Positions 10,530 through 40,070 of a stretch of DNA of 64,000 nucleotides are shown here, piece after piece. The stretch comes from Methanobacteriota archaeon (GTDB taxonomy: Archaea; Thermoplasmatota; Poseidoniia; Poseidoniales; Poseidoniaceae): contig NZGQ01000100.1 of NCBI GenBank assembly GCA_002689565.1, forward strand, positions 1-64,000. Direction: 5' to 3'. The position numbers and the translations under genes are program-made. The notes under the pieces are model-generated. The model was given only the letters and a program-made list of their open reading frames with translations. It searched no databases and had not been told where the DNA came from. Position 1 is the first letter of the stretch; each line of letters opens with the position of its first letter.

Positions 10530-11375
10530 ATGAGTAAGTTGAAGTTCTATCAAATAGTTATGCCCGACAACGAAGCGTCTATGGAGTATCATGAGATCTC
10601 CAAAGCATCGTTTGAATGTGTATCTGATATAGTAGAAATCATTCCATTCGAGGCAATCACGCCTCACCATCCAGACTTTGAAGAACACCAATCCAGATAC
10701 AACTGGCAATGGTCGTTGATGACCTTAGATAACAAGGATAAGAAACTCAGGTTTGAATTTGAAGAACCACACTCACCCACAGAAAGGGCAGGCATGTGTT
10801 CTCATTGGGAACTTATGCGACAGGCATCTTTAACCGAAGAACGATTCTGGGTTACTGAACATGACACTTATCTATGGCCCGAACACGAAGATGTCTTTAG
10901 GTATCTCGTATCAATAGTTGGAACACGAAACATTGAGTATGCAAACATAGGGTTGTTCATGGGATGTTATTCGTTCTCTAGAGATCTAGCACATCACAGT
11001 TATCACTTGTTATCACAAAAACAATTTCCTATTAACTGTGGCCCATTTGGAGTACTGGAGAGACTGTACAAAACTTACTGTACTTACCAGTTTGAAGAAT
11101 CAGAAAAATATAAATTAAAAGAGTTCACGTTCCTACATCCGTGGGCGAATGGAGACTCTCTACGATTTGGTAAATCCAAAGAAGAGATGTTCGACACCTA
11201 CAACAAGTTCGATCGTGACATATTCCCACATCTACCGAGGTCTTTCTGGCCACCTAATCCTACTACACAAGTAGTCAAAAAAGATTTGATGGTTACTCAG
11301 GAACATAGATTGTATCCAGAAAACATGCAGATGGAACCTTGGAAACGTAGTAAAAGATTCAAAGTAATTGATTGA
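10530..11375 (+). CDS. Putative glycosyltransferase-like protein
   Basis: A 281-residue protein of no certain family. It contains FWVTEHDTYLW (an acidic DxY site after a beta strand, as in GT-A folds), and ends with conserved-looking segments (HPWANGDSLRFGK and HLPRSFWPPNP). Marine phages often carry such solitary glycosyltransferase-like genes between core genes. The stop codon lies within the -35 box of the gp43 promoter. Treat the enzyme class as a guess. Confidence 0.5.
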   Translation: MSKLKFYQIVMPDNEASMEYHEISKASFECVSDIVEIIPFEAITPHHPDFEEHQSRYNWQWSLMTLDNKDKKLRFEFEEPHSPTERAGMCSHWELMRQASLTEERFWVTEHDTYLWPEHEDVFRYLVSIVGTRNIEYANIGLFMGCYSFSRDLAHHSYHLLSQKQFPINCGPFGVLERLYKTYCTYQFEESEKYKLKEFTFLHPWANGDSLRFGKSKEEMFDTYNKFDRDIFPHLPRSFWPPNPTTQVVKKDLMVTQEHRLYPENMQMEPWKRSKRFKVID

Positions 11376-23301: not shown

Positions 23302-23309
23302 TATAAATA
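23302..23309 (+). promoter_or_regulatory. T4-type late promoter heading the curli-like cluster
   Basis: Exact TATAAATA in the short gap before 23342, 40 bases from the start codon. It is the only promoter-like signal I see upstream of the csgF/csgG genes, implying late expression of the cluster. Confidence 0.7.
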
Positions 23310-23341
23310 CCTACATAATCTCTGATTTGAAGGTATGAACT

Positions 23342-23620
23342 ATGGATGCACTATTTAACCTACTCGAAGTAGGTTTTCCTATTGCCTCAGCACTCGCTGG
23401 GGGTTTCTTCGTATTCCTTACACTCAGGTTTATTCTTGACGGTGCATTGTCCGATATCAAAACACAACGTGGTTTTGTAAAAGGACTTGATGACCGAATC
23501 AAGACGATGAATAACGAATTGGTGAGAATCGATTCAATGATTAACCATGTCTTTAATCTGAAACCAGATTTAGACAGGCTGTCCAGAAGTGACGGACAGA
23601 AAGATGCACGTAAAGATTGA
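23342..23620 (+). CDS. Small holin-like/UviB-like membrane protein, first copy
   Basis: A 92-residue protein. Residues 8-33 (LEVGFPIASALAGGFFVFLTLRFIL) form a membrane helix and the rest is a charged coiled coil (LDDRIKTMNNELVRIDSMINHV). The design resembles BhlA/UviB-type holins. The next gene has the same design, so the two look like a diverged tandem duplication. They may be holin-like, or accessory inner-membrane parts of the curli-like system. Confidence 0.62.
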   Translation: MDALFNLLEVGFPIASALAGGFFVFLTLRFILDGALSDIKTQRGFVKGLDDRIKTMNNELVRIDSMINHVFNLKPDLDRLSRSDGQKDARKD

Positions 23621-23922
23621 TGCCAGATATTAATGTAGTTGATTTAATTAACACATACGGATTTCCCATAATCGCAAGTATTGGATTAGGGTACTTCATC
23701 TATTACGTGTGGAAATGGGTAACGGATCAGGTAGATCCAGTTATCGAAGATTCACACTTGACCTTGATAAAGTTGATCGATCGTGTGAGAATGTTAGATA
23801 ATGATCTGATACGATTGAAGACTAAATTGGATATGCTTATACAACAACAGGATAAACGAAATGAAATTGAATATATTACTGACAACGATTATATTGATCC
23901 TTCCGATAGCAGCGAAGGGTGA
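23620..23922 (+). CDS. Small holin-like/UviB-like membrane protein, second copy
   Basis: A 100-residue protein starting at ATG 23620, which shares one base with the previous stop. It has an N-terminal helix (INTYGFPIIASIGLGYFIYYVWKW) and a coiled coil (LTLIKLIDRVRMLDNDLIRLKTKLDML) laid out as in its neighbour (GFPI plus helix, then R-x-x-x-x-D/N-N-x-L pattern). Its 3' end overlaps csgF by 62 bases. Confidence 0.6.
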   Translation: MPDINVVDLINTYGFPIIASIGLGYFIYYVWKWVTDQVDPVIEDSHLTLIKLIDRVRMLDNDLIRLKTKLDMLIQQQDKRNEIEYITDNDYIDPSDSSEG

Positions 23923-24355
23923 TATAGTACACGGTTTTAAAAACCCAAGTTTTAGTGGGATAGGTACTGGTTCACATTATCTTACGATTGAGAATCAGGA
24001 ACATTCTAGGAAGAAGGCGATTAAAGATGCTCTGGAGGCAGCTGAGAAGGCAGCTCAAAGAGAGGCAGAGAATACAACTCTCGCAAAATTTATTCGTAAC
24101 CTAGAGAGTAGAATATATGCACAGTTGTCAAAACAATTGGTTGACAACATGTTTAGTAATGATAATGCAGTAACCTTTGGATCTTTCGTATTGGAAGGTT
24201 CTATGGTTAGTTACGAAGTACTCACCAACGAGAATGGAGAAGAGTACATTAAGATGCGTATCGTTGATGAGAACGGTACAGAAACTATTATTGAGATTCC
24301 AATCGGTACAGGTAATTTCGGATCTGACGGTGGTGATGGTGCTGATGGTACGTAA
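23861..24355 (+). CDS. csgF: CsgF-like curli assembly protein
   Basis: A 164-residue protein with a signal peptide (KLNILLTTIILILPIAAKG). The mature N-terminus FKNPSFSGIGTG matches the conserved CsgF start (FxNPxFGG), the segment that inserts into the CsgG pore in the E. coli complex. A central helical stretch (ALEAAEKAAQREAENTTLAKFI, ESRIYAQLSKQLVDNMF) is followed by the beta region GSFVLEGSMVSYEV and IVDENGTETIIEIPIG seen in CsgF. The central part is longer than in E. coli. CsgG follows directly, overlapping by 11 bases, which supports the call. Confidence 0.85.
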   Translation: MKLNILLTTIILILPIAAKGDIVHGFKNPSFSGIGTGSHYLTIENQEHSRKKAIKDALEAAEKAAQREAENTTLAKFIRNLESRIYAQLSKQLVDNMFSNDNAVTFGSFVLEGSMVSYEVLTNENGEEYIKMRIVDENGTETIIEIPIGTGNFGSDGGDGADGT

Positions 24356-25277
24356 TTTGCATATACTGATAGTGTCTGTCATTTTTATGACAGGTTGCGC
24401 CCAGATGCCACAATGGTCAGAATTACCTAATGACGCCCATTGTATATCTGGTAAAGATTACATATGGGATAAGTTTAAGGAGAAAAAATACTTATGTGTG
24501 GAGAATCCAGAAGTAGTAAGGATGCCTTCATACGTACAGTTATTAGAAGTTCCGCCTGCAAAAACTATGCCTGTTGTAGCAGTCTATGATTTTCAAGACA
24601 AGACTGGTCAACGTAAGGCACGAGATGGTATCGCAGATTTTAGTACTGCGGTATCACAAGGTGGAACAGAGTTGTTAATCGATGCACTCAAGACTGCGGG
24701 CAAAGGTACGTGGTTTAGAGTTGTTGAGAGACAGGGTATTGACAATCTGGTTAGAGAACGACAGATAGTGCGTAGTACCCGACAAGAGTACGCTGACGAT
24801 AAGTCTCAGGGATTAGGCCCTTTACTATTTGCTGGGATGATTATCGAGGGCGGAATTATTGGTTACGATACCAATATCCAGACAGGAGGTCGAGGGGCAA
24901 GAACATTAGGAATTGGGTTTACTAGGCAGTATAGACAAGATGTTGTTACTGTTTCTATCAGAGCGGTATCCGTTTTGACAGGTGAAGTATTATTGAATGT
25001 CCAAACCAAAAAGACAGTTTTGTCTTATGGTAGTGGGGGTGACGTGTTCAGATTTCATGAACAGGGAACCAAACTTATTGAGTATGAGGACGGAGTGGGT
25101 AATAATGAGAATGTGACGTATGCGGTACGAACGGCAATTGAGGCGGGAGTACTGGAATTAATATACCAAGGGCACGATAGAGGTCTTTGGAAAGTAAGTG
25201 ATGGCCATCGTCATCCCCATCTGAGTGATGGAACAAACGATGCTCATCATATAGGAGAAAAAGAAGAAAATGAATAA
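24345..25277 (+). CDS. csgG: CsgG-like curli secretion-channel lipoprotein
   Basis: About 310 residues from ATG 24345 (an ATG at 24336 is also possible). A lipobox precedes Cys18 (VIFMTGC). The sequence follows CsgG: VAVYDFQDKTGQ, DFSTAVSQGGTELLIDALK, FRVVERQGIDNLVRERQI, GGIIGYDTNIQTGGRGAR and ETGV-like EAGVLELIYQGHDRGLWK. The pore-constriction phenylalanine aligns with F99 and the adjacent Asn with D98. CsgG forms a nonameric outer-membrane channel exporting curlin. An extra N-terminal stretch with two cysteines and a His-rich tail (GHRHPHLSDG) differ from E. coli. Confidence 0.9.
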   Translation: MVRNLHILIVSVIFMTGCAQMPQWSELPNDAHCISGKDYIWDKFKEKKYLCVENPEVVRMPSYVQLLEVPPAKTMPVVAVYDFQDKTGQRKARDGIADFSTAVSQGGTELLIDALKTAGKGTWFRVVERQGIDNLVRERQIVRSTRQEYADDKSQGLGPLLFAGMIIEGGIIGYDTNIQTGGRGARTLGIGFTRQYRQDVVTVSIRAVSVLTGEVLLNVQTKKTVLSYGSGGDVFRFHEQGTKLIEYEDGVGNNENVTYAVRTAIEAGVLELIYQGHDRGLWKVSDGHRHPHLSDGTNDAHHIGEKEENE

Positions 25278-26004
25278 GTACTTTAAAGGAATACTTGCAA
25301 GTGTTTTTGTTATGTCAAGTTTTGCTTGGGCAGGTGCTTCAGACGACAACGAGATTAATATTGATCAGTCAGGTGACACTCTGACTCTTTATATTGATCA
25401 GGTCGGTTATGGTAACAAAATTGGTCTTGACGACTTTTCGTCATCATCAAGTGCGACACCAATAACTGGTTCATCGTTGACATTTAATATCGATCAACTA
25501 GGTAATGAAAACTTATTGTTTGGATCATTGACTGCTGACCAGTCAACCTACAATATGTTGTTTACTGGTGACGCTAACTCATGGGATTGGAACATAGGTG
25601 AAACTGGTTCTGCTGACTCTACAACTATTGATGTAGATATAACAGGGGATACAAACACTATGAACTTTGACCAAGGTGCAGTTGCATCAGCAGAAAGACT
25701 GGATTTGGATCTTACAGTATTGGGTTCAAGTAATGTCTTTGATGTTGACGTTGAAACCGATGATGTTACTTGGAGCTGGGATTTAACTGGTTCATCTAAT
25801 AACATCAACACTCTTCAGAATGACGGTTTTTATCAAGAGATGACTGTCACTTATGATGGTGATGGCGGAGATATTGATATCAATCAGTTGAGTGGTACAT
25901 GTCCTACAGGAATAACATCCTGTAAAGGTATCATCACTTTAGATGTAACGTCTGACAATGCTACAATACAGATCAATCAAAAAGATACTTCTAACGATAG
26001 TTAG
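25270..26004 (+). CDS. Curlin-like secreted repeat protein, first copy
   Basis: A 244-residue protein with a clear signal peptide (MNKYFKGILASVFVMSSFAWA). The mature part has curlin-type repeats with the strand-Q-x-G-x-x-N pattern: INIDQSGDT, YIDQVGYGNK, FNIDQLGNEN, then weaker copies rich in D, N, S, T and G. A pair of cysteines (TCPTG, SCKG) lies near the end and the last strand reads ATIQINQK. It is much like CsgA/CsgB in design though with fewer perfect repeats. It directly follows csgG, and its partner at 27099 has the same length. Confidence 0.8.
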   Translation: MNKYFKGILASVFVMSSFAWAGASDDNEINIDQSGDTLTLYIDQVGYGNKIGLDDFSSSSSATPITGSSLTFNIDQLGNENLLFGSLTADQSTYNMLFTGDANSWDWNIGETGSADSTTIDVDITGDTNTMNFDQGAVASAERLDLDLTVLGSSNVFDVDVETDDVTWSWDLTGSSNNINTLQNDGFYQEMTVTYDGDGGDIDINQLSGTCPTGITSCKGIITLDVTSDNATIQINQKDTSNDS

Positions 26005-27097
26005 TGGAATATTTTCGATAGGGATCGTTACGGCGGCCACTATCGGAGATATTGTGGAATCCAAAGGAGTGGGTTCTATTCTACGTGAGAGGGATCTCTT
26101 ATCGTCAGAAGTTGGTGTACCGATTGAATTAAATGACACCGCCCAGACTGCACAAGGGCGGATGTTGATCAAGTTCAAAGATGAGGCGGAACTTAGTCTC
26201 ATTGAACACACCAAAGTCTTTATTGATAAGATCTATTATGATCCAGATCCGAGTAAGTCCAAGATGGTCATGAAGATGGCACTTGGAACTGCTCGGTTCG
26301 CATCTGGCCGACTAGGCATGGTCGATAAGAAAAATATCGACATAACAACACCTACCGCCACCATTGCGGTACGTGGAACCGATTTCACGACTACCATTGA
26401 TGAACTTGGTAGGACGTTAGTAATATTATTACCAGATGATAATGGCGATCCATCTGGAGAAATAGTGGTATCGAATGAGGCGGGTGAAGTTACACTCACT
26501 CAGGCGTATGCTTCTACGGTGGTATCAAGTTTAAATACACCACCAACCGAAACTGTAGTAATACAGGACATAACACCAGACACGATCGACAACATGTTTA
26601 TTGTTTCGCCTCCAAAGGAAGTTGAACAGTACATGGGAGGAGAAGTCGATGATGATGGTGGTACAGATTTAGGTGCATTGGATGTTGACTTTCTAGAGTT
26701 TGATGAACTAGATAAGACATTCGATGACTATGTTGGAGACGACACCTTTACTAGGTTAGACTACGATGCCCTTGATGGGAACTTCTTGGTAGATCTATTA
26801 GACGAAGTAGAGGAGTTAGTCCGAACAATGCAAGAATTAGAAGATGTCCAAGAAGGACAGGCTTCGGGGAAAATCAGACTAAGGGGTGCTGTCTGGGGTA
26901 AGAACAACGACAGTCAATATAATATTTTTGAGGAAGACAATGGAATTGTTTTCTATCGTGACGTAAACGGAGTTATTGCCTTAAACTTTTTATCTGGAGG
27001 TAGTATAACCCTAGATACAGAAGTAGACGGTTATAGAGGTACGATAACCGCAGACGGTGGAGAGGACATAGTAGTGGTTATTAGACAGGTTAATTAA
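25958..27097 (+). CDS. Secreted FecR-domain protein
   Basis: A 379-residue protein with a signal peptide (IKKILLTIVSGIFSIGIVTA). Residues about 30-170 are a FecR domain: GDIVESKGVGSILRERDLL, TAQGRMLIKFKDEAELSL, ALGTARFASGRLGM and ITTPTATIAVRGTDFTT. The remainder is acidic and ends in a beta-rich segment. Many FecR-domain proteins are anti-sigma regulators, but a signal peptide and lack of a sigma gene here suggest an envelope or scaffold role. It overlaps the first curlin gene by 47 bases and stops one base before the second. Confidence 0.82.
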   Translation: MLQYRSIKKILLTIVSGIFSIGIVTAATIGDIVESKGVGSILRERDLLSSEVGVPIELNDTAQTAQGRMLIKFKDEAELSLIEHTKVFIDKIYYDPDPSKSKMVMKMALGTARFASGRLGMVDKKNIDITTPTATIAVRGTDFTTTIDELGRTLVILLPDDNGDPSGEIVVSNEAGEVTLTQAYASTVVSSLNTPPTETVVIQDITPDTIDNMFIVSPPKEVEQYMGGEVDDDGGTDLGALDVDFLEFDELDKTFDDYVGDDTFTRLDYDALDGNFLVDLLDEVEELVRTMQELEDVQEGQASGKIRLRGAVWGKNNDSQYNIFEEDNGIVFYRDVNGVIALNFLSGGSITLDTEVDGYRGTITADGGEDIVVVIRQVN

Positions 27098-27098
27098 T

Positions 27099-27833
27099 AT
27101 GAGTAAATTCGAACGTAATTTTTGGGATGGAATGACACTTATCTTTGTGTGTTTCCTTTGTTTCGTTTCTTTCAAAACTTCCGCAGACAACGAAATCTCG
27201 TTGGAACAATCAGGTACAAACTTTAGTCTAGGTATAGAACAGGTAGGTTCACACAACGTCATACAGATGTTGAGTAGTGATTCATACAACACGACAACCT
27301 ACAGCGGATTTCTATTCATTCAATACAACGAAGATACTTCTTCTGACAACAAGATTACAATAGACGAGGTCACTGGTACTGGGAACGGTGTAAAGATCTG
27401 TCAAGGATGTGCATTCGATTATCCAGAGAGTTATACCAATCACGACTACTGGTACGATAACTGGGAAGGTGGTGGCCACACTGTTGATCTAACTATGTAC
27501 GGAGACAATAACGGTGTCTCTGTTCAACAAACAAATCAAGGTAGTTCGGACGGTCATTCTGTTGATCTACACTTAGCTGGTGACGATAACGAAGTCACTA
27601 CAATTCAACAACACGATGGTGCTAAGTCCATATACCTTACCATCTATAATGATGAGAACGATGTGTTCATTCGTCAGAAAGGTTCGGGATCGACACACAA
27701 TGCTAACATTACCCTTGATGGTACATATGGCACTGACCTAACACTAAAACAATTTAATTCAACCGCATCCTACACATTGCAACAAAATTGCTTGACAGTG
27801 GGTGGATGTTCTGTTACAATAACACAACAATGA
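27099..27833 (+). CDS. Curlin-like secreted repeat protein, second copy
   Basis: A 244-residue paralogue of the first curlin-like protein. The signal peptide runs to about residue 29 (LIFVCFLCFVSFKTSA). The first mature repeat pair NEISLEQSGTNF and LGIEQVGSHNVIQ lines up with the corresponding NEINIDQSGDTL and YIDQVGYGNK of the other copy. Later strands (VDLTMYGDNNGVSVQQ, VDLHLAGDDNEVTTIQQ, IYLTIYNDENDVFIRQ) keep the N and Q spacing typical of curlin. It ends with two cysteines and VTITQQ. The two copies may form a major/minor subunit pair as CsgA and CsgB do, which is inference. Confidence 0.8.
   Translation: MSKFERNFWDGMTLIFVCFLCFVSFKTSADNEISLEQSGTNFSLGIEQVGSHNVIQMLSSDSYNTTTYSGFLFIQYNEDTSSDNKITIDEVTGTGNGVKICQGCAFDYPESYTNHDYWYDNWEGGGHTVDLTMYGDNNGVSVQQTNQGSSDGHSVDLHLAGDDNEVTTIQQHDGAKSIYLTIYNDENDVFIRQKGSGSTHNANITLDGTYGTDLTLKQFNSTASYTLQQNCLTVGGCSVTITQQ
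27792..27820 (+). promoter_or_regulatory. Possible sigma70-like promoter inside the second curlin gene
   Basis: TTGACA at 27792-27797, a 17-base spacer and TACAAT at 27815-27820, the same arrangement as the gp44 promoter. It lies in the last codons of the curlin gene, just before the small membrane protein and cyclase genes. As it is in coding sequence, it may be chance. Confidence 0.4.
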
Positions 27834-28117
27834 GTGATATAAACATTCATATAGAAGGGACTTGTCCCGAAGAGTTCGCAGTCTGTATGACCAATGACGA
27901 GTGGGCAGATTTCATTATCGAGTATGAATTAGAACTAGGTGATGAATTGTCTTCTATGGAAATAGGTGATGCGGAAGCAGTCGCAAACTTTACGTGGGAA
28001 ATCCTTTTTCTCTCACCTTGGGAGTTGGCTTACATTGCACTTCCTATGAGTGTACTTGCATTCTATGGACTGAGCATCTACGCAGTATTTAAGTGGTTGC
28101 AGAAGAAGTTTAGTTAA
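27830..28117 (+). CDS. Small membrane protein upstream of the cyclase
   Basis: A 95-residue protein with an ATGA overlap at its start and a one-base overlap with the cyclase gene. The first 60 residues are acidic (FAVCMTNDEWADFIIEYELELGDE). One membrane helix follows (WELAYIALPMSVLAFYGLSIYAVF) with a basic tail (KWLQKKFS). Tight linkage suggests it works with the cyclase or the curli proteins. No family recognised. Confidence 0.65.
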   Translation: MSDINIHIEGTCPEEFAVCMTNDEWADFIIEYELELGDELSSMEIGDAEAVANFTWEILFLSPWELAYIALPMSVLAFYGLSIYAVFKWLQKKFS

Positions 28118-29937
28118 TGACCAAGTGGTGGAGTGTTTTACCAGTCATTGTACTGTTTGCGTTTCTAAAGATCACGCAGACAGATATTGTGAAGACCGTG
28201 CAATTCGGTTACTACGATCAGTTACAAAAAAGTCAAGAGGTCATATCTGTTGATGATATTGTACTGGTAAACATTGATGAAAGTGCCATTGAAAAGGAGG
28301 GACAATACCCTTGGCCAAGACAGACCATCGCAAAATATATAAACTCAGCTCCAAACAATACTCTACTTGTATCGACAATAATATGGTCAGAACCAGACCG
28401 ATTTGTGGGGGATCAGGAACTATCAAACTCGATCGCCCAAAAACCAGTAATACTAGCAGCCGCCCCTACTCGCCAAACTACTACAGTTGATTTAGGAATA
28501 TATGCGAACGTATCTACGTTTGGTAAACCAGTAAACTCACTCATCGACTACAGTGGATTACTGACACCACTTCCAGAACTTGCACAGATGAGTATGGGAG
28601 TAGGAGCAGTATCCGCTGAAGTCGATCAACCTACAGGTGTTCTAAGACGAGTACCACTCATGGTAGGAATCAATGGACAACCATATCCGTCTCTTGGTCT
28701 AGATGCAGTACGTGTCTGGATAGGTGAACCATCCTACACCGTTAAGTACAATCCTCTTGGTGTAGAATGGATAAGATTGGGAAAACAGGATCCTTTAATC
28801 ACAGAACCCTCTTCAGAGTTGCCTATTGCGTTCTGGCACGACTTTGCTTCACAGTCTATACTAGAACCTATTCCCGAAGGTAAGATAGCAATTCTTGGTG
28901 TAACTGCCGAGGGATATTCTAATCCAGTCGCAACCCCAAAGGGTGCAGTGTATCCCCACGAAGTTCAAGGTCATCAAATTCAGACCGTGCTTTCAGGAGT
29001 TCAAATAAAGAAACCCGACTGGACTGTATTAGTCGAAGTCTTGATTCTTCTGGTAGTATGTCTAGGAATCCTTGTAGCGGTCTATACTCTTTCCACAAAG
29101 CTTGCGGTTCTAGTGAGTTTAAGTATTCTTTGTGTCCCGATGGGTTTATCCTTCTATTTCTGGTCTGGTGGGTTTCTTTTCTTAGACGGCGTCTGGAGTT
29201 CAATTGCTGGGTTCCTTGTATTTGGTCAGTCAAGTTTCAATCAGTATTATACCACATATAAACTGAAAGAACAAGTAAAAAAACAATTCGGTACGTATTT
29301 ATCTCCAGACATGGTTTATATGTTACAGAAGGATCCATCACTTCTGAAACTTGGTGGTGAGCGCAAGGAGATGTCGTTCTTATTTATGGATATCTGTGGC
29401 TTCACTCCGATCTCAGAACACTACAAAAACAATGATGATCCAGAGGGACTGGTTGAACTGATCAACGAGTTCCTAGATGCGATGACGAAAATAATTCTCA
29501 ATAATAACGGAACCATTGATAAATACATGGGCGATTGTATCATGGCGTTCTGGAACGCTCCAGTACCTTGTGAGAATCACGCAGAGATGGCCGTCAAATC
29601 CGCAAAAGAAATAGAAGAGAAAACAGATGAACTTAGACGAAAATATAAAGAACAGGGTTTACCCCCCATCAATGTCGGCACTGGTATTAATACAGGCGAT
29701 TGCATTGTTGGTAATATGGGTAGTGAGTCAAGGTTTGACTATTCAGTCATCGGAGACGCTGTCAACCTTGCAGCCAGACTCGAAGCAACTGCCGCCCGTG
29801 GAGAGTACAAAGACTTTCCCACCATCTACTCTAGTCACACAATGGAACAACTTACCGACACTGTATCGAGACCGATAGGTCAGATCAAAGTCAAGGGTAA
29901 AGAAGAACTCATTGATATCTACACTTTCTTGAAATAA
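28117..29937 (+). CDS. CHASE2-domain class III adenylate cyclase
   Basis: A 606-residue membrane enzyme: an N-terminal membrane helix, an extracytoplasmic CHASE2 sensor (DDIVLVNIDESAIEKEGQYPW to about residue 300), three membrane helices (about 310-395) and a cytoplasmic class III cyclase domain from about 415. Catalytic residues are present: metal-binding D425 (FMDICGFT) and D473 (MGDC), purine-binding K469, and N550 and R554 in VNLAARLE. So it should be active, most likely making cAMP. Such a receptor cyclase is common in bacteria but unusual in a phage. It is the last gene of the curli-like cluster. Confidence 0.88.
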   Translation: MTKWWSVLPVIVLFAFLKITQTDIVKTVQFGYYDQLQKSQEVISVDDIVLVNIDESAIEKEGQYPWPRQTIAKYINSAPNNTLLVSTIIWSEPDRFVGDQELSNSIAQKPVILAAAPTRQTTTVDLGIYANVSTFGKPVNSLIDYSGLLTPLPELAQMSMGVGAVSAEVDQPTGVLRRVPLMVGINGQPYPSLGLDAVRVWIGEPSYTVKYNPLGVEWIRLGKQDPLITEPSSELPIAFWHDFASQSILEPIPEGKIAILGVTAEGYSNPVATPKGAVYPHEVQGHQIQTVLSGVQIKKPDWTVLVEVLILLVVCLGILVAVYTLSTKLAVLVSLSILCVPMGLSFYFWSGGFLFLDGVWSSIAGFLVFGQSSFNQYYTTYKLKEQVKKQFGTYLSPDMVYMLQKDPSLLKLGGERKEMSFLFMDICGFTPISEHYKNNDDPEGLVELINEFLDAMTKIILNNNGTIDKYMGDCIMAFWNAPVPCENHAEMAVKSAKEIEEKTDELRRKYKEQGLPPINVGTGINTGDCIVGNMGSESRFDYSVIGDAVNLAARLEATAARGEYKDFPTIYSSHTMEQLTDTVSRPIGQIKVKGKEELIDIYTFLK

Positions 29938-29943
29938 TTTTAA

Positions 29944-29981
29944 GAAAACGCTTGACAAACTTGTTTTGAATATGATATAAT
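29944..29981 (+). promoter_or_regulatory. Promoter module (AAAACG element, TTGACA, TATAAT)
   Basis: GAAAACGC directly precedes TTGACA (29952-29957), then an 18-base spacer and TATAAT at 29976-29981. The GAAAACGCTTGACA block recurs at 50596, 53119 and 54448. An imperfect dyad (29926-29946, TTCTTGAAAT against ATTTTAAGAA) overlaps the cyclase gene end just upstream. Confidence 0.82.
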
Positions 29982-37979: not shown

Positions 37980-40070
37980 ATGAAATCGTTCAAACAAATC
38001 CGTGAGGCAAAATCATCATCTGGTTATGACCTCTATCATAAAACATTTAGTGGTGCGATGCAACACGCTTACGCTTTTGCCAAGAAGAAAGGGTTTCAAG
38101 TAGATAAGAACGACATCGACAACAAGGTTGCGACTGGGCCGAAGAAACCATCTTCGGGTAAGACCAACAAGTATATCCTAAAGACTAACAAAGCAAATCG
38201 TCACGCACATATCCAAGTCGCAAACTTGGACAACAAACGTTACGAGTTGAATATGTACATCGAGTCTGTTACCCAAGAAAATGTCGAACTCGAAGAACGA
38301 TTCACCCCCAAAGAAATCAAGATGGCAATCGGTGTTGCATCTGACAAACGATATGCTGGTGGTAACTACTCTGGTGCAGTTCGTGCCATCGAGAAGATCA
38401 AGAAAGGTTTATCCAAACATAAACAAGTAGCGGCTGTATTACGTAGACAGAACGAATCACTTGAAGAGTCACTTGAAGAGAACCGTAATCTATTTAAAGA
38501 CTACGAACAACTCAAGAAGAAAGGTAAGTCTGATAGTCAAGCACAAGACATTCTATTGTCTATGCCCCAGTACAAAAGATACGATAGTGCCAAGTTAGGT
38601 AAACTAATTGGTGATGCATTACGTAAGGGAACTATCCGTAAGAAAGCACCATTCAAGTTGGCAGAAGAGTTCACGCCACACAAGATGTATGATCCCAAGA
38701 CTGGTAAAGAGTATGATGCAAAGACTCAAGCAGACCATGAACGTATGGCAAAGATGGGTTATACTCACGAGAAACCTGAAGTAAACGAGAAAGCATTACA
38801 CAATGTTCGTGGTAAAGACGGTAAGACATACTCTCTTGAATTAGATCAGAGTGGTCGTAAAGTTATGGTTCGTACCAAGAACCAATACGGTGATATCGCA
38901 ACTATCCCTCTAAAGAAAGCAGTAAAGATCTTTGAAGAGTCAGAGTCAGAAGTATTATCTGAGATGGCAGTATCACGTAAAGACTTTGATAGGATCAAGA
39001 AGAATGATGTTATCGAATTTGTGTTTGACTCTTCAATGAAGAAAGGACACAAAGGAAAACTCAAAGTCAAGAGTAAGACACGTAGTGCAAAATATAATGT
39101 TGACAAGATTAACATGGTAGATGCTACTGATACTCGTAACAAAACTAAGTTTACCCTATTCAGTCGTGGTGGCAAAGATGCTACACTTGGTTGGGGTGGC
39201 ATGGCTGTTGTTATCAAATCATATAAGATTGGTGTAAAAGAATCAGTCAACGAAGACTATGCACAAGACTTACATCTTGCACAGAAGAATGTGGCAAGAC
39301 TTGCCAAGAAAGAAAAAGGTCAAGATCAAAAAGACTACATGGCAGTTGCTCGTGCATTGAATCAAGGTAACCTTGGTGCAGTTAAGAAAGTAATCAAAAG
39401 TATTAGTACCGATGAGATCAGAGCAGATATTCTAAATATCCTTGTAGGTTATAATGATCTAATTGCTAAGATGTATCCTAAAGCAACAGATGCTAAAGGT
39501 AGACTCAAGTCTGGTATGTCTGTAAGTAAGATGATTAAGGAAGACGTAGAACTTGATGAGAACTATCGTCAACTCGCACAAAAAGGTATGGGTACAGAAA
39601 CTCAGAAAGATGCACGAGTTGGATTAGAGTTAGATTACTACGACTCGAAAGGTAACAAACAGTTTGGTAAGATTGTTAAGAAGACTGCATCTGGTTACAT
39701 TGTTAAGGATGACAAGACAGGTAAATCTCATTCATTCTCATATCACGATCGTATGAAAGCAAAGAAACTTTTATCCGCACAACGTCAGTGTGAAGCGGTA
39801 GATCCTGCTGATATAGATATAAAGGCAACGGACGATGATCGTAAAGCAGCTGACAAGAATATTATTGTTCAGTTACGTAGAGTTGCAGACTTACCAAAGG
39901 GTGGACAGATTGAGTTCAAGAACGGTAAGAAAGTAAACCTGAAACAACCTCTTGCAAAGGCAGTACTTCAGAAGTATGCACAGATCAAGAGAAACGATCA
40001 AAAATTAAAGTTTGCAAAGTTGGCTAGTAATAGTCCACAAGATATGCAAAAGGCAATGAAATTACGATGA
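37980..40070 (+). CDS. Large modular late protein, possible internal-head polyprotein
   Basis: A 696-residue lysine- and glutamate-rich protein. It starts MKSFKQIREAKSSS. Separate small modules are joined by acidic linkers with L-x-E type sites: VELEERF, NESLEESLEEN, KLAEEF, VLSEMAV and VELDENY. The L-x-E pattern is what the T4 prohead protease cuts. Modules include a DUF5872-like KMYDPKTGKEYDAKTQADH stretch and a C-terminal VQLRRVADLPKGGQIEF segment. It could be cut into several internal proteins. No enzyme motif seen. Confidence 0.6.
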   Translation: MKSFKQIREAKSSSGYDLYHKTFSGAMQHAYAFAKKKGFQVDKNDIDNKVATGPKKPSSGKTNKYILKTNKANRHAHIQVANLDNKRYELNMYIESVTQENVELEERFTPKEIKMAIGVASDKRYAGGNYSGAVRAIEKIKKGLSKHKQVAAVLRRQNESLEESLEENRNLFKDYEQLKKKGKSDSQAQDILLSMPQYKRYDSAKLGKLIGDALRKGTIRKKAPFKLAEEFTPHKMYDPKTGKEYDAKTQADHERMAKMGYTHEKPEVNEKALHNVRGKDGKTYSLELDQSGRKVMVRTKNQYGDIATIPLKKAVKIFEESESEVLSEMAVSRKDFDRIKKNDVIEFVFDSSMKKGHKGKLKVKSKTRSAKYNVDKINMVDATDTRNKTKFTLFSRGGKDATLGWGGMAVVIKSYKIGVKESVNEDYAQDLHLAQKNVARLAKKEKGQDQKDYMAVARALNQGNLGAVKKVIKSISTDEIRADILNILVGYNDLIAKMYPKATDAKGRLKSGMSVSKMIKEDVELDENYRQLAQKGMGTETQKDARVGLELDYYDSKGNKQFGKIVKKTASGYIVKDDKTGKSHSFSYHDRMKAKKLLSAQRQCEAVDPADIDIKATDDDRKAADKNIIVQLRRVADLPKGGQIEFKNGKKVNLKQPLAKAVLQKYAQIKRNDQKLKFAKLASNSPQDMQKAMKLR

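Follow-up and report, generated by a model that had tools for sequence, protein, structure and literature searches.

The curli-type cluster and its products

The stretch of DNA analysed here (the window: 64,000 nucleotides (nt), positions 1 to 64,000 of contig NZGQ01000100.1) carries on its + strand, between positions 23342 and 29937, a closely packed cluster of curli-type (type VIII secretion) genes. A preliminary description of the sequence had drawn attention to it, and the observation is confirmed. Eight genes were counted at that time; place and strand were right, but the list of open reading frames (ORFs) gives nine, which is also the sum of the genes that the description itself named. 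They follow each other in the order TM1, TM2, CsgF, CsgG, curlin 1, FecR, curlin 2, small membrane protein and CHASE2-cyclase, with a promoter-like box ahead of them:

23302..23309, + strand: T4-type late promoter box TATAAATA, starting 40 nt before the TM1 start codon
23342..23620, + strand: TM1, 92 amino acids (aa); a single hydrophobic region followed by a charged tail; phrog_18771 (a family of unknown function) at 9.5e-26
23620..23922, + strand: TM2, 100 aa; paralogue of TM1; phrog_18771 at 5.4e-27; 1-nt overlap of its ATG with the TM1 stop
23861..24355, + strand: CsgF, 164 aa; predicted signal peptide; Pfam 8.2e-16; start overlaps TM2 by 62 nt
24345..25277, + strand: CsgG outer-membrane pore lipoprotein; Pfam 1.5e-51; lipobox-like FMTGC
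25270..26004, + strand: curlin-like exported protein 1 (curlin 1), 244 aa
25958..27097, + strand: FecR-domain exported protein, 379 aa; Pfam 4.2e-8; acidic linker; curlin-like last strand; overlaps curlin 1 by 47 nt
27099..27833, + strand: curlin-like exported protein 2 (curlin 2), 244 aa
27830..28117, + strand: small membrane protein, 95 aa; a single hydrophobic segment close to the C-terminus; varies among relatives
28117..29937, + strand: CHASE2 and class III nucleotide cyclase, 606 aa; CHASE2 3.9e-27, cyclase 6.7e-18 (Pfam)

The gene ends overlap at seven of the eight junctions (by 1 to 62 nt), much as first described, the exception being a gap of 1 nt between FecR and curlin 2. The matches for CsgF, CsgG, FecR, CHASE2 and cyclase are all above the Pfam cut-offs, and these five identities are solid; the early assignment of the two pore genes is upheld by profile searches that are significant for both. 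Residues 57-285 of CsgG align with solved E. coli CsgG chains at 9.2e-48, and its translation likely starts at the ATG at 24345. A search for the CsgE family gave no match in any of 11 related records, of which several are fragments; this protein is in any case reported to be absent from alphaproteobacterial curli systems (PMC3521004).

The genes around the cluster include, by their PHROG names, a DNA polymerase, a UvsX-like recombinase, a DnaB-like helicase, a clamp loader and SbcC- and SbcD-like subunits, together with a thymidylate synthase and a ribonucleotide reductase. The window is therefore T4-like phage DNA, as the preliminary description had it.

The curlin identity is weak for each copy taken singly. 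The window's curlin 1 has a curlin match at 0.0013, just under the cut-off, and its curlin 2 alone has no curlin match in Pfam. Support comes from the relatives, since 10 of 16 aligned members of the curlin 1 family and 9 of 14 of the curlin 2 family match Curlin_rpt at E<=0.01, and also from the fold; the claim of two curlin-like secreted proteins thus draws its support from family and fold and not from the window copies themselves. One of the 14 curlin 2 proteins contains a PA14 domain (2.7e-6). Its bearer should be the curlin 2 of phage HTVC008M (L001 10638-11963), by its long N-terminal extension, and a fibre bearing a domain of this kind would be consistent with adhesion.

The FecR domain, also recognised at the outset, is found in all 16 family members. 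Classical FecR is an inner-membrane protein that has a cytoplasmic part and works with a partner sigma factor; in the window's FecR an N-terminal hydrophobic segment directly precedes the domain, and no such cytoplasmic part was seen. The curlin-like last strand of the phage FecR would be a new observation. Its motif [VIA]x[VIL]xQ, shaped on these same sequences, lies within three residues of the C-terminus in 52 of 54 FecR proteins (by construction of the set, those of 53 phage loci plus the bacterial locus L087). The same strict motif is present in 40 of 46 curlin 2 proteins and in none of 437 other phage ORFs, while a looser form is found in 0/60 CsgG, 0/59 CsgF and 0/45 cyclase proteins.

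The cyclase aligns with a solved chain named CyaB (6.7e-33). Positions D425, K469, D473, S543, N550 and R554, which we take to be the two metal Asp, the Lys plus Ser/Thr/Asp purine pair, the Asn and the Arg, are all kept in 41 of 45 proteins; the four departures are L087 (Thr at 543), L069 (Tyr at 425), the truncated L058 and phage Melnitz. Adenylyl cyclases show Thr or Asp at the purine position. The Ser at 543 fits this, and the product is therefore predicted to be cyclic AMP (cAMP) and the enzyme an adenylyl cyclase. What had been called the phage's own adenylate cyclase stands as a prediction but not as something specific to phages, since the bacterial cassettes described below carry a cyclase too. 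In ten loci the interval between curlin 2 and the cyclase varies between -46 and 842 nt.

Relatives in phages and bacteria

A tblastn search with CsgG over 50,697 phage records matched seven, namely two of HTVC008M, four of Melnitz and one unannotated 1.5 kb record titled Salmonella phage. The last (OR851715.1, 1,499 bases) encodes a CsgG 43% identical, which is more likely a host csgG. In the viral CsgG scan, where the best 80 of 312 relatives were kept, all eight profile genes occur in a single order in 54 loci, and the remaining 26 end less than 700 nt from the last gene found. None of the 54 uncut loci lacks CsgF, FecR, cyclase or either curlin. A conserved gene order, which the preliminary description had proposed as a check, is thus seen in these 54 loci.

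A partial curli operon in pelagimyophages was reported with sibling capture as its proposed role (PMC7029224), and the module HK-CsgF-CsgG-CsgA/B-FecR-CsgA/B-adenylate cyclase (HK, histidine kinase) has been described in podo- and myophages (pelagiphages), with its genes seen in ocean metatranscriptomes and modules at all 65 ocean stations analysed (PMC9599517). The earlier mention of csgF/csgG-like genes in marine T4-like phages was accurate, and the module is more fully published than it suggested. Since the module exists in published pelagiphages in the same order, the window adds a member and not a novel kind.

This type VIII secretion system module, carried by HTVC008M (L001) and Melnitz (L002), is like that of the window in gene kinds and order, and the window's proteins are 28-51% identical to those of these two cultured phages. 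The window differs in having one more small membrane gene, placed ahead of the cyclase, and in two small leading genes that show no kinase domain, where the published module begins with one or two genes named histidine kinases. On the 3' side the window has a DUF932 gene and an exonuclease, whereas HTVC008M has tape-measure and baseplate genes. The CsgGF genes of Melnitz (PMC9004378) are homologous to the window's pore genes; according to that paper csgA and csgB are absent, whereas the GenBank record of Melnitz annotates two curlin-repeat genes together with a FecR gene (L002 9872-12666). With the E. coli csgBAC/csgDEFG system the window shares CsgG (9e-48 to the solved chains), CsgF and, in its relatives, curlin repeats. 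It differs from that system in having FecR and a cyclase in the operon, a phage late box and weak curlin repeats, and in that no CsgE was found in the 11 related records.

The abstract of PMC9599517 sets FecR and the cyclase apart from bacterial curli operons. A new addition is that a CsgF-CsgG-curlin-FecR-cyclase cassette, as judged by profile matches, is present in three bacterial genomes. A genome scan with the cyclase gave 79 kept loci, three of which (L083, L084, L087) have CsgG within the fetched stretch. L083 and L084 carry TM1/TM2 and group with phages. L087, on a contig titled as a Caulobacteraceae metagenome-assembled genome (MAG), has the order CsgF-CsgG-curlin-curlin-FecR-cyclase, and its neighbours, read by eye from the ORFs, are glycosyltransferase-, peptidase- and TonB-receptor-like. 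Searches with CsgF gave matches in 7 of the 385 genomes taken from the class of L087 and in 42 of the 398 from its order, two being shared, thus 47 genomes together; 40 fetched loci and L087 were read, some on short contigs, and six were left out. Of those 40 loci, L236 (on a 705 kb contig) carries CsgF-CsgG-curlin-FecR-cyclase with a single curlin gene, and in the remaining 39 these profiles detect neither FecR nor cyclase. L269, one of six further regions, holds all six cassette genes. In a phylum-wide draw of 398 genomes eight matched, the starting genome with 199 bits and all others with at most 52. The TM1/TM2 profiles, which detect the pair in phage loci, have no match beside the three bacterial cassettes, and a search by alignment through all three genomes, run without a positive control, gave 0/3.

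Trees were built after the phage rows had been thinned. In the cyclase tree 26 phage cyclases form one clade (1.0), sister to the three bacterial cassette cyclases (0.989) as against 77 other bacterial ones. The CsgG tree joins 28 phage sequences and the three bacterial ones in one clade (0.836), apart from 38 classic CsgG; two of the 28 fall outside a clade of 26 phages and 3 bacteria (0.995). The bacterial cassette (L087, L236, L269) is like the window in gene kinds, order and cyclase kinship, and differs from it in flanking genes that read as cellular from the ORFs and in the missing TM1/TM2 match. Among the papers searched none contains both CsgG and CHASE2, and neither FecR nor a cyclase is mentioned in the main text of PMC3521004, although the figures or supplements of PMC9599517, PMC9004378, PMC7029224 and PMC3521004 could still show such a bacterial operon.

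Two other candidates were rejected. Loci L083-L086 are titled as four unrelated bacterial MAGs (Sphingobacteriales, Saprospirales, Synechococcus, Flavobacteriaceae), yet their genes fall among phages; they have a cyclase of the phage type, the complete module is present in two, and they are likely misbinned phage DNA. FecR and a CHASE2 cyclase are also not a common adjacent pair in bacteria, as only one of the 74 other bacterial cyclase loci shows it on the same strand within 300 nt. FecR lies about 370 nt from the cyclase on the same strand in L108, divergently within about 270 nt in L092, L102 and L132, and anywhere in the fetched stretch in 22 of the 74 loci, so that outside the cassette there is some pairing of the two genes, though a weak one. 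In uncultured Alphaproteobacteria (L139, L121, L146, L137, L105, L101 and others) long ORFs of about 840-1030 aa with a FecR domain were seen on the opposite strand less than 10 kb from a CHASE2 cyclase.

TM1, TM2 and promoter-like elements

The late box TATAAATA occurs 10 times in the window against 3.74 expected, and as many copies were found in 1 of 100 shuffles. In related loci it stands near TM1 (from 150 nt upstream to 30 nt downstream of the first start codon) in 61 of 82 TM1 genes, where the box density of the same loci would give 0.027 per 180 nt; these counts are not independent, because the loci are related. First start codons were set mechanically, the commonest place of the box being 13 nt upstream, and in HTVC008M the box lies before CsgF and not before TM1. 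The late promoter proposed ahead of the cluster is therefore supported both at 23302 and among the relatives.

The membrane segment of TM2 was read from its alignment with TM1, since the hydropathy threshold itself called no segment in TM2. Window TM1 has no Pfam match, nor has any of 13 members of the TM2 family; TM2 matches the holin family phrog_4898 faintly (8e-4). By position only, the two genes were equated with those ahead of csgF that PMC9599517 names histidine kinases. That they are kinases regulating the module is hardly credible, and we rejected it. A His is frequent in TM2 (47/54), which would favour such a role, but HTVC008M and Melnitz have Gln at that position and no His is conserved in TM1 (at most 12/52 in any column). 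Moreover the proteins are only 92-101 aa long and no HisKA or HATPase match was obtained in window TM1, window TM2 or the 13 TM2 members.

That TM1 and TM2 are general phage genes unconnected with curli was rejected as well, as module genes lie on 73 of 80 TM1 contigs (the best 80 of 598 relatives), in 14 of the 73 solely on the opposite strand and converging on TM2. The seven contigs without a module gene each end at most 1.7 kb behind TM2. Five of them end less than 320 nt behind TM1 or TM2; L308 and L309, in which 1.7 and 1.4 kb follow TM2, may be exceptions. Ten TM1 contigs have at least 2 kb behind TM2 without CsgG or CsgF on the + strand, and module genes are present on all ten: nine have them on the opposite strand in convergent orientation, and L320 has them upstream on the strand of TM1-TM2. 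CsgG is found in eight of these ten records, for two of the eight by a match with one stop codon counted in, and the other two records are short. Given this neighbourhood in 73 of the 80 contigs, and in spite of the varying order, we assign TM1/TM2 as a phage pair tied to the module; a role in gating or timing would be a guess.

A second arrangement, with TM1-TM2 facing a converging cyclase and curlin and often FecR, was seen in L310, L316, L319, L337, L339, L346 and L350, on contigs of up to 357 kb, and in L320 curlin 2 and the cyclase precede TM1-TM2 on the same strand. Six database proteins of 152-175 aa (P0121-P0126) resemble TM1-TM2 fusions by length and score (unaligned).

One further promoter-like feature follows the cyclase:

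29952..29981, + strand: sigma70-type promoter-like site, TTGACA-18-TATAAT, 12/12 (consensus match only)

It likely marks the start of the next transcription unit. A similar site at 27792-27820 (11/12, extended -10, again a consensus match only) lies inside the last part of the curlin 2 gene, immediately ahead of the genes for the small membrane protein and the cyclase, and might serve separate expression of the cyclase.

The polymerase closest to that of the window is from Phage C48C1 (63%), and the window's FecR is present as a protein on seven contigs, the longest of 144,420 bases (P0001). Scans of the window for Rfam families (gathering cut-offs) and for transfer RNAs gave no match. Two long ORFs, 37980-40070 (696 aa) and 10530-11375 (281 aa), have no PHROG match at 1e-5.

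Possible roles of the module

From the predicted identities, order and overlaps of the genes, the late box, the intact cyclase positions and the kinship of pore and cyclase with three bacterial cassettes, we are inclined, at about even chances, to see the cluster as a system for late amyloid export onto the infected cell, in which FecR and the cyclase would report the envelope state as cAMP. Late transcription would make all parts of the module, and Sec would presumably export CsgF, CsgG, the curlins and FecR. CsgG and CsgF may then form the outer-membrane pore through which the curlins would leave and polymerise into fibres outside the cell. FecR, periplasmic or on the fibre, could act on the CHASE2 domain, and cAMP or its loss would inform the cell. 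As no cyclic nucleotide monophosphate (cNMP)-binding protein was found in 10 phage records, the reader of cAMP would be a host protein; the search matched only two whole bacterial MAGs, and the phage contig L083 is part of one. The benefit, for which the odds are modest, would be that fibres hold neighbouring cells and released virions close. The keeping of the curlins and CsgF in every uncut locus argues for fibres and not for a bare pore.

Several results weigh against this proposal. As no phage receptor was found in the 10 records, the cAMP step depends on the host, and the Melnitz cyclase is changed at two catalytic positions. Outside the cassette, a FecR match less than 300 nt from the cyclase on the same strand was found in 1 of 74 loci (L161). 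Foldseek gave no match reaching E 0.001 for curlin 1, and the curlin fold match to CsgA has a high root mean square deviation of 8.8 and is tied with unrelated beta-helices. The FecR structure model has a mean confidence (pLDDT) of 60. The tail motif was shaped on these same sequences; in strict form it fits 3 of 58 curlin 1 proteins, which carry residues beyond the strand, in looser form 56 of 58, but with a background of 10/437, and the bacterial FecR of L236 ends in VFILE, without the Q. Finally, PMC9004378 reports no clumping of Melnitz-infected cells in cytograms or transmission electron microscopy, which speaks against gathering in that phage.

The CsgG pore is wide and crosses the outer membrane, not the inner one, and these properties bear on two rival explanations. 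Its width, together with the FecR domain, could let the infected cell take up cofactors or iron complexes, FecR acting as a regulator of iron, but this FecR shows no classical cytoplasmic part and has a curlin-like tail, and no cluster gene matched a transporter family in Pfam; we regard this explanation, offered in PMC9599517, as very improbable. The pore itself might instead be the working part, opening the outer membrane late and setting or speeding lysis, with the curlins as plugs or leftovers; a lysis role was proposed for Melnitz CsgGF (PMC9004378). The late box, the lack of a CsgE gate in the 11 related records, the small membrane proteins that head the operon (TM2 with its faint holin match) and the absence of clumping with Melnitz are in its favour. 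Lysis nevertheless seems unlikely to us, as the pore does not reach the inner membrane, two curlins, CsgF, FecR and cyclase persist in all 54 uncut loci, and alphaproteobacterial curli systems lack CsgE anyway (PMC3521004).

Instead of gathering cells, the fibres may shield the infected cell against other, superinfecting phages. The gene evidence is identical for the two roles and shielding has been offered in PMC9599517; late expression, however, would follow much of the period when superinfection matters, and we consider shielding doubtful. Superinfection block, lysis and gathering of cells, all suggested in the preliminary description, have each already been proposed in print (PMC7029224, PMC9004378, PMC9599517).

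The amyloid export that we favour could be taken further, in a form to which we give little credence: the amyloid would read itself, FecR, with its curlin-type strand, docking on the pore or on the fibre as it grows and signalling its state to the CHASE2 cyclase, with TM1/TM2 added by the phage to let cAMP or the state of the fibre time the end of infection, and the system would be an undescribed bacterial curli subtype (CsgF-CsgG-curlin-FecR-cyclase) shared with phages.

If the export of amyloid is true, phages that build amyloid on their hosts would represent a rare kind of host remodelling. The bacterial cassettes amend the published view that places FecR and the cyclase outside bacterial curli operons, and they offer a cellular setting for testing the link of FecR and cyclase to curli with no pelagiphage needed. 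The association of TM1/TM2 with the module, in turn, singles out two uncharacterised phage proteins.

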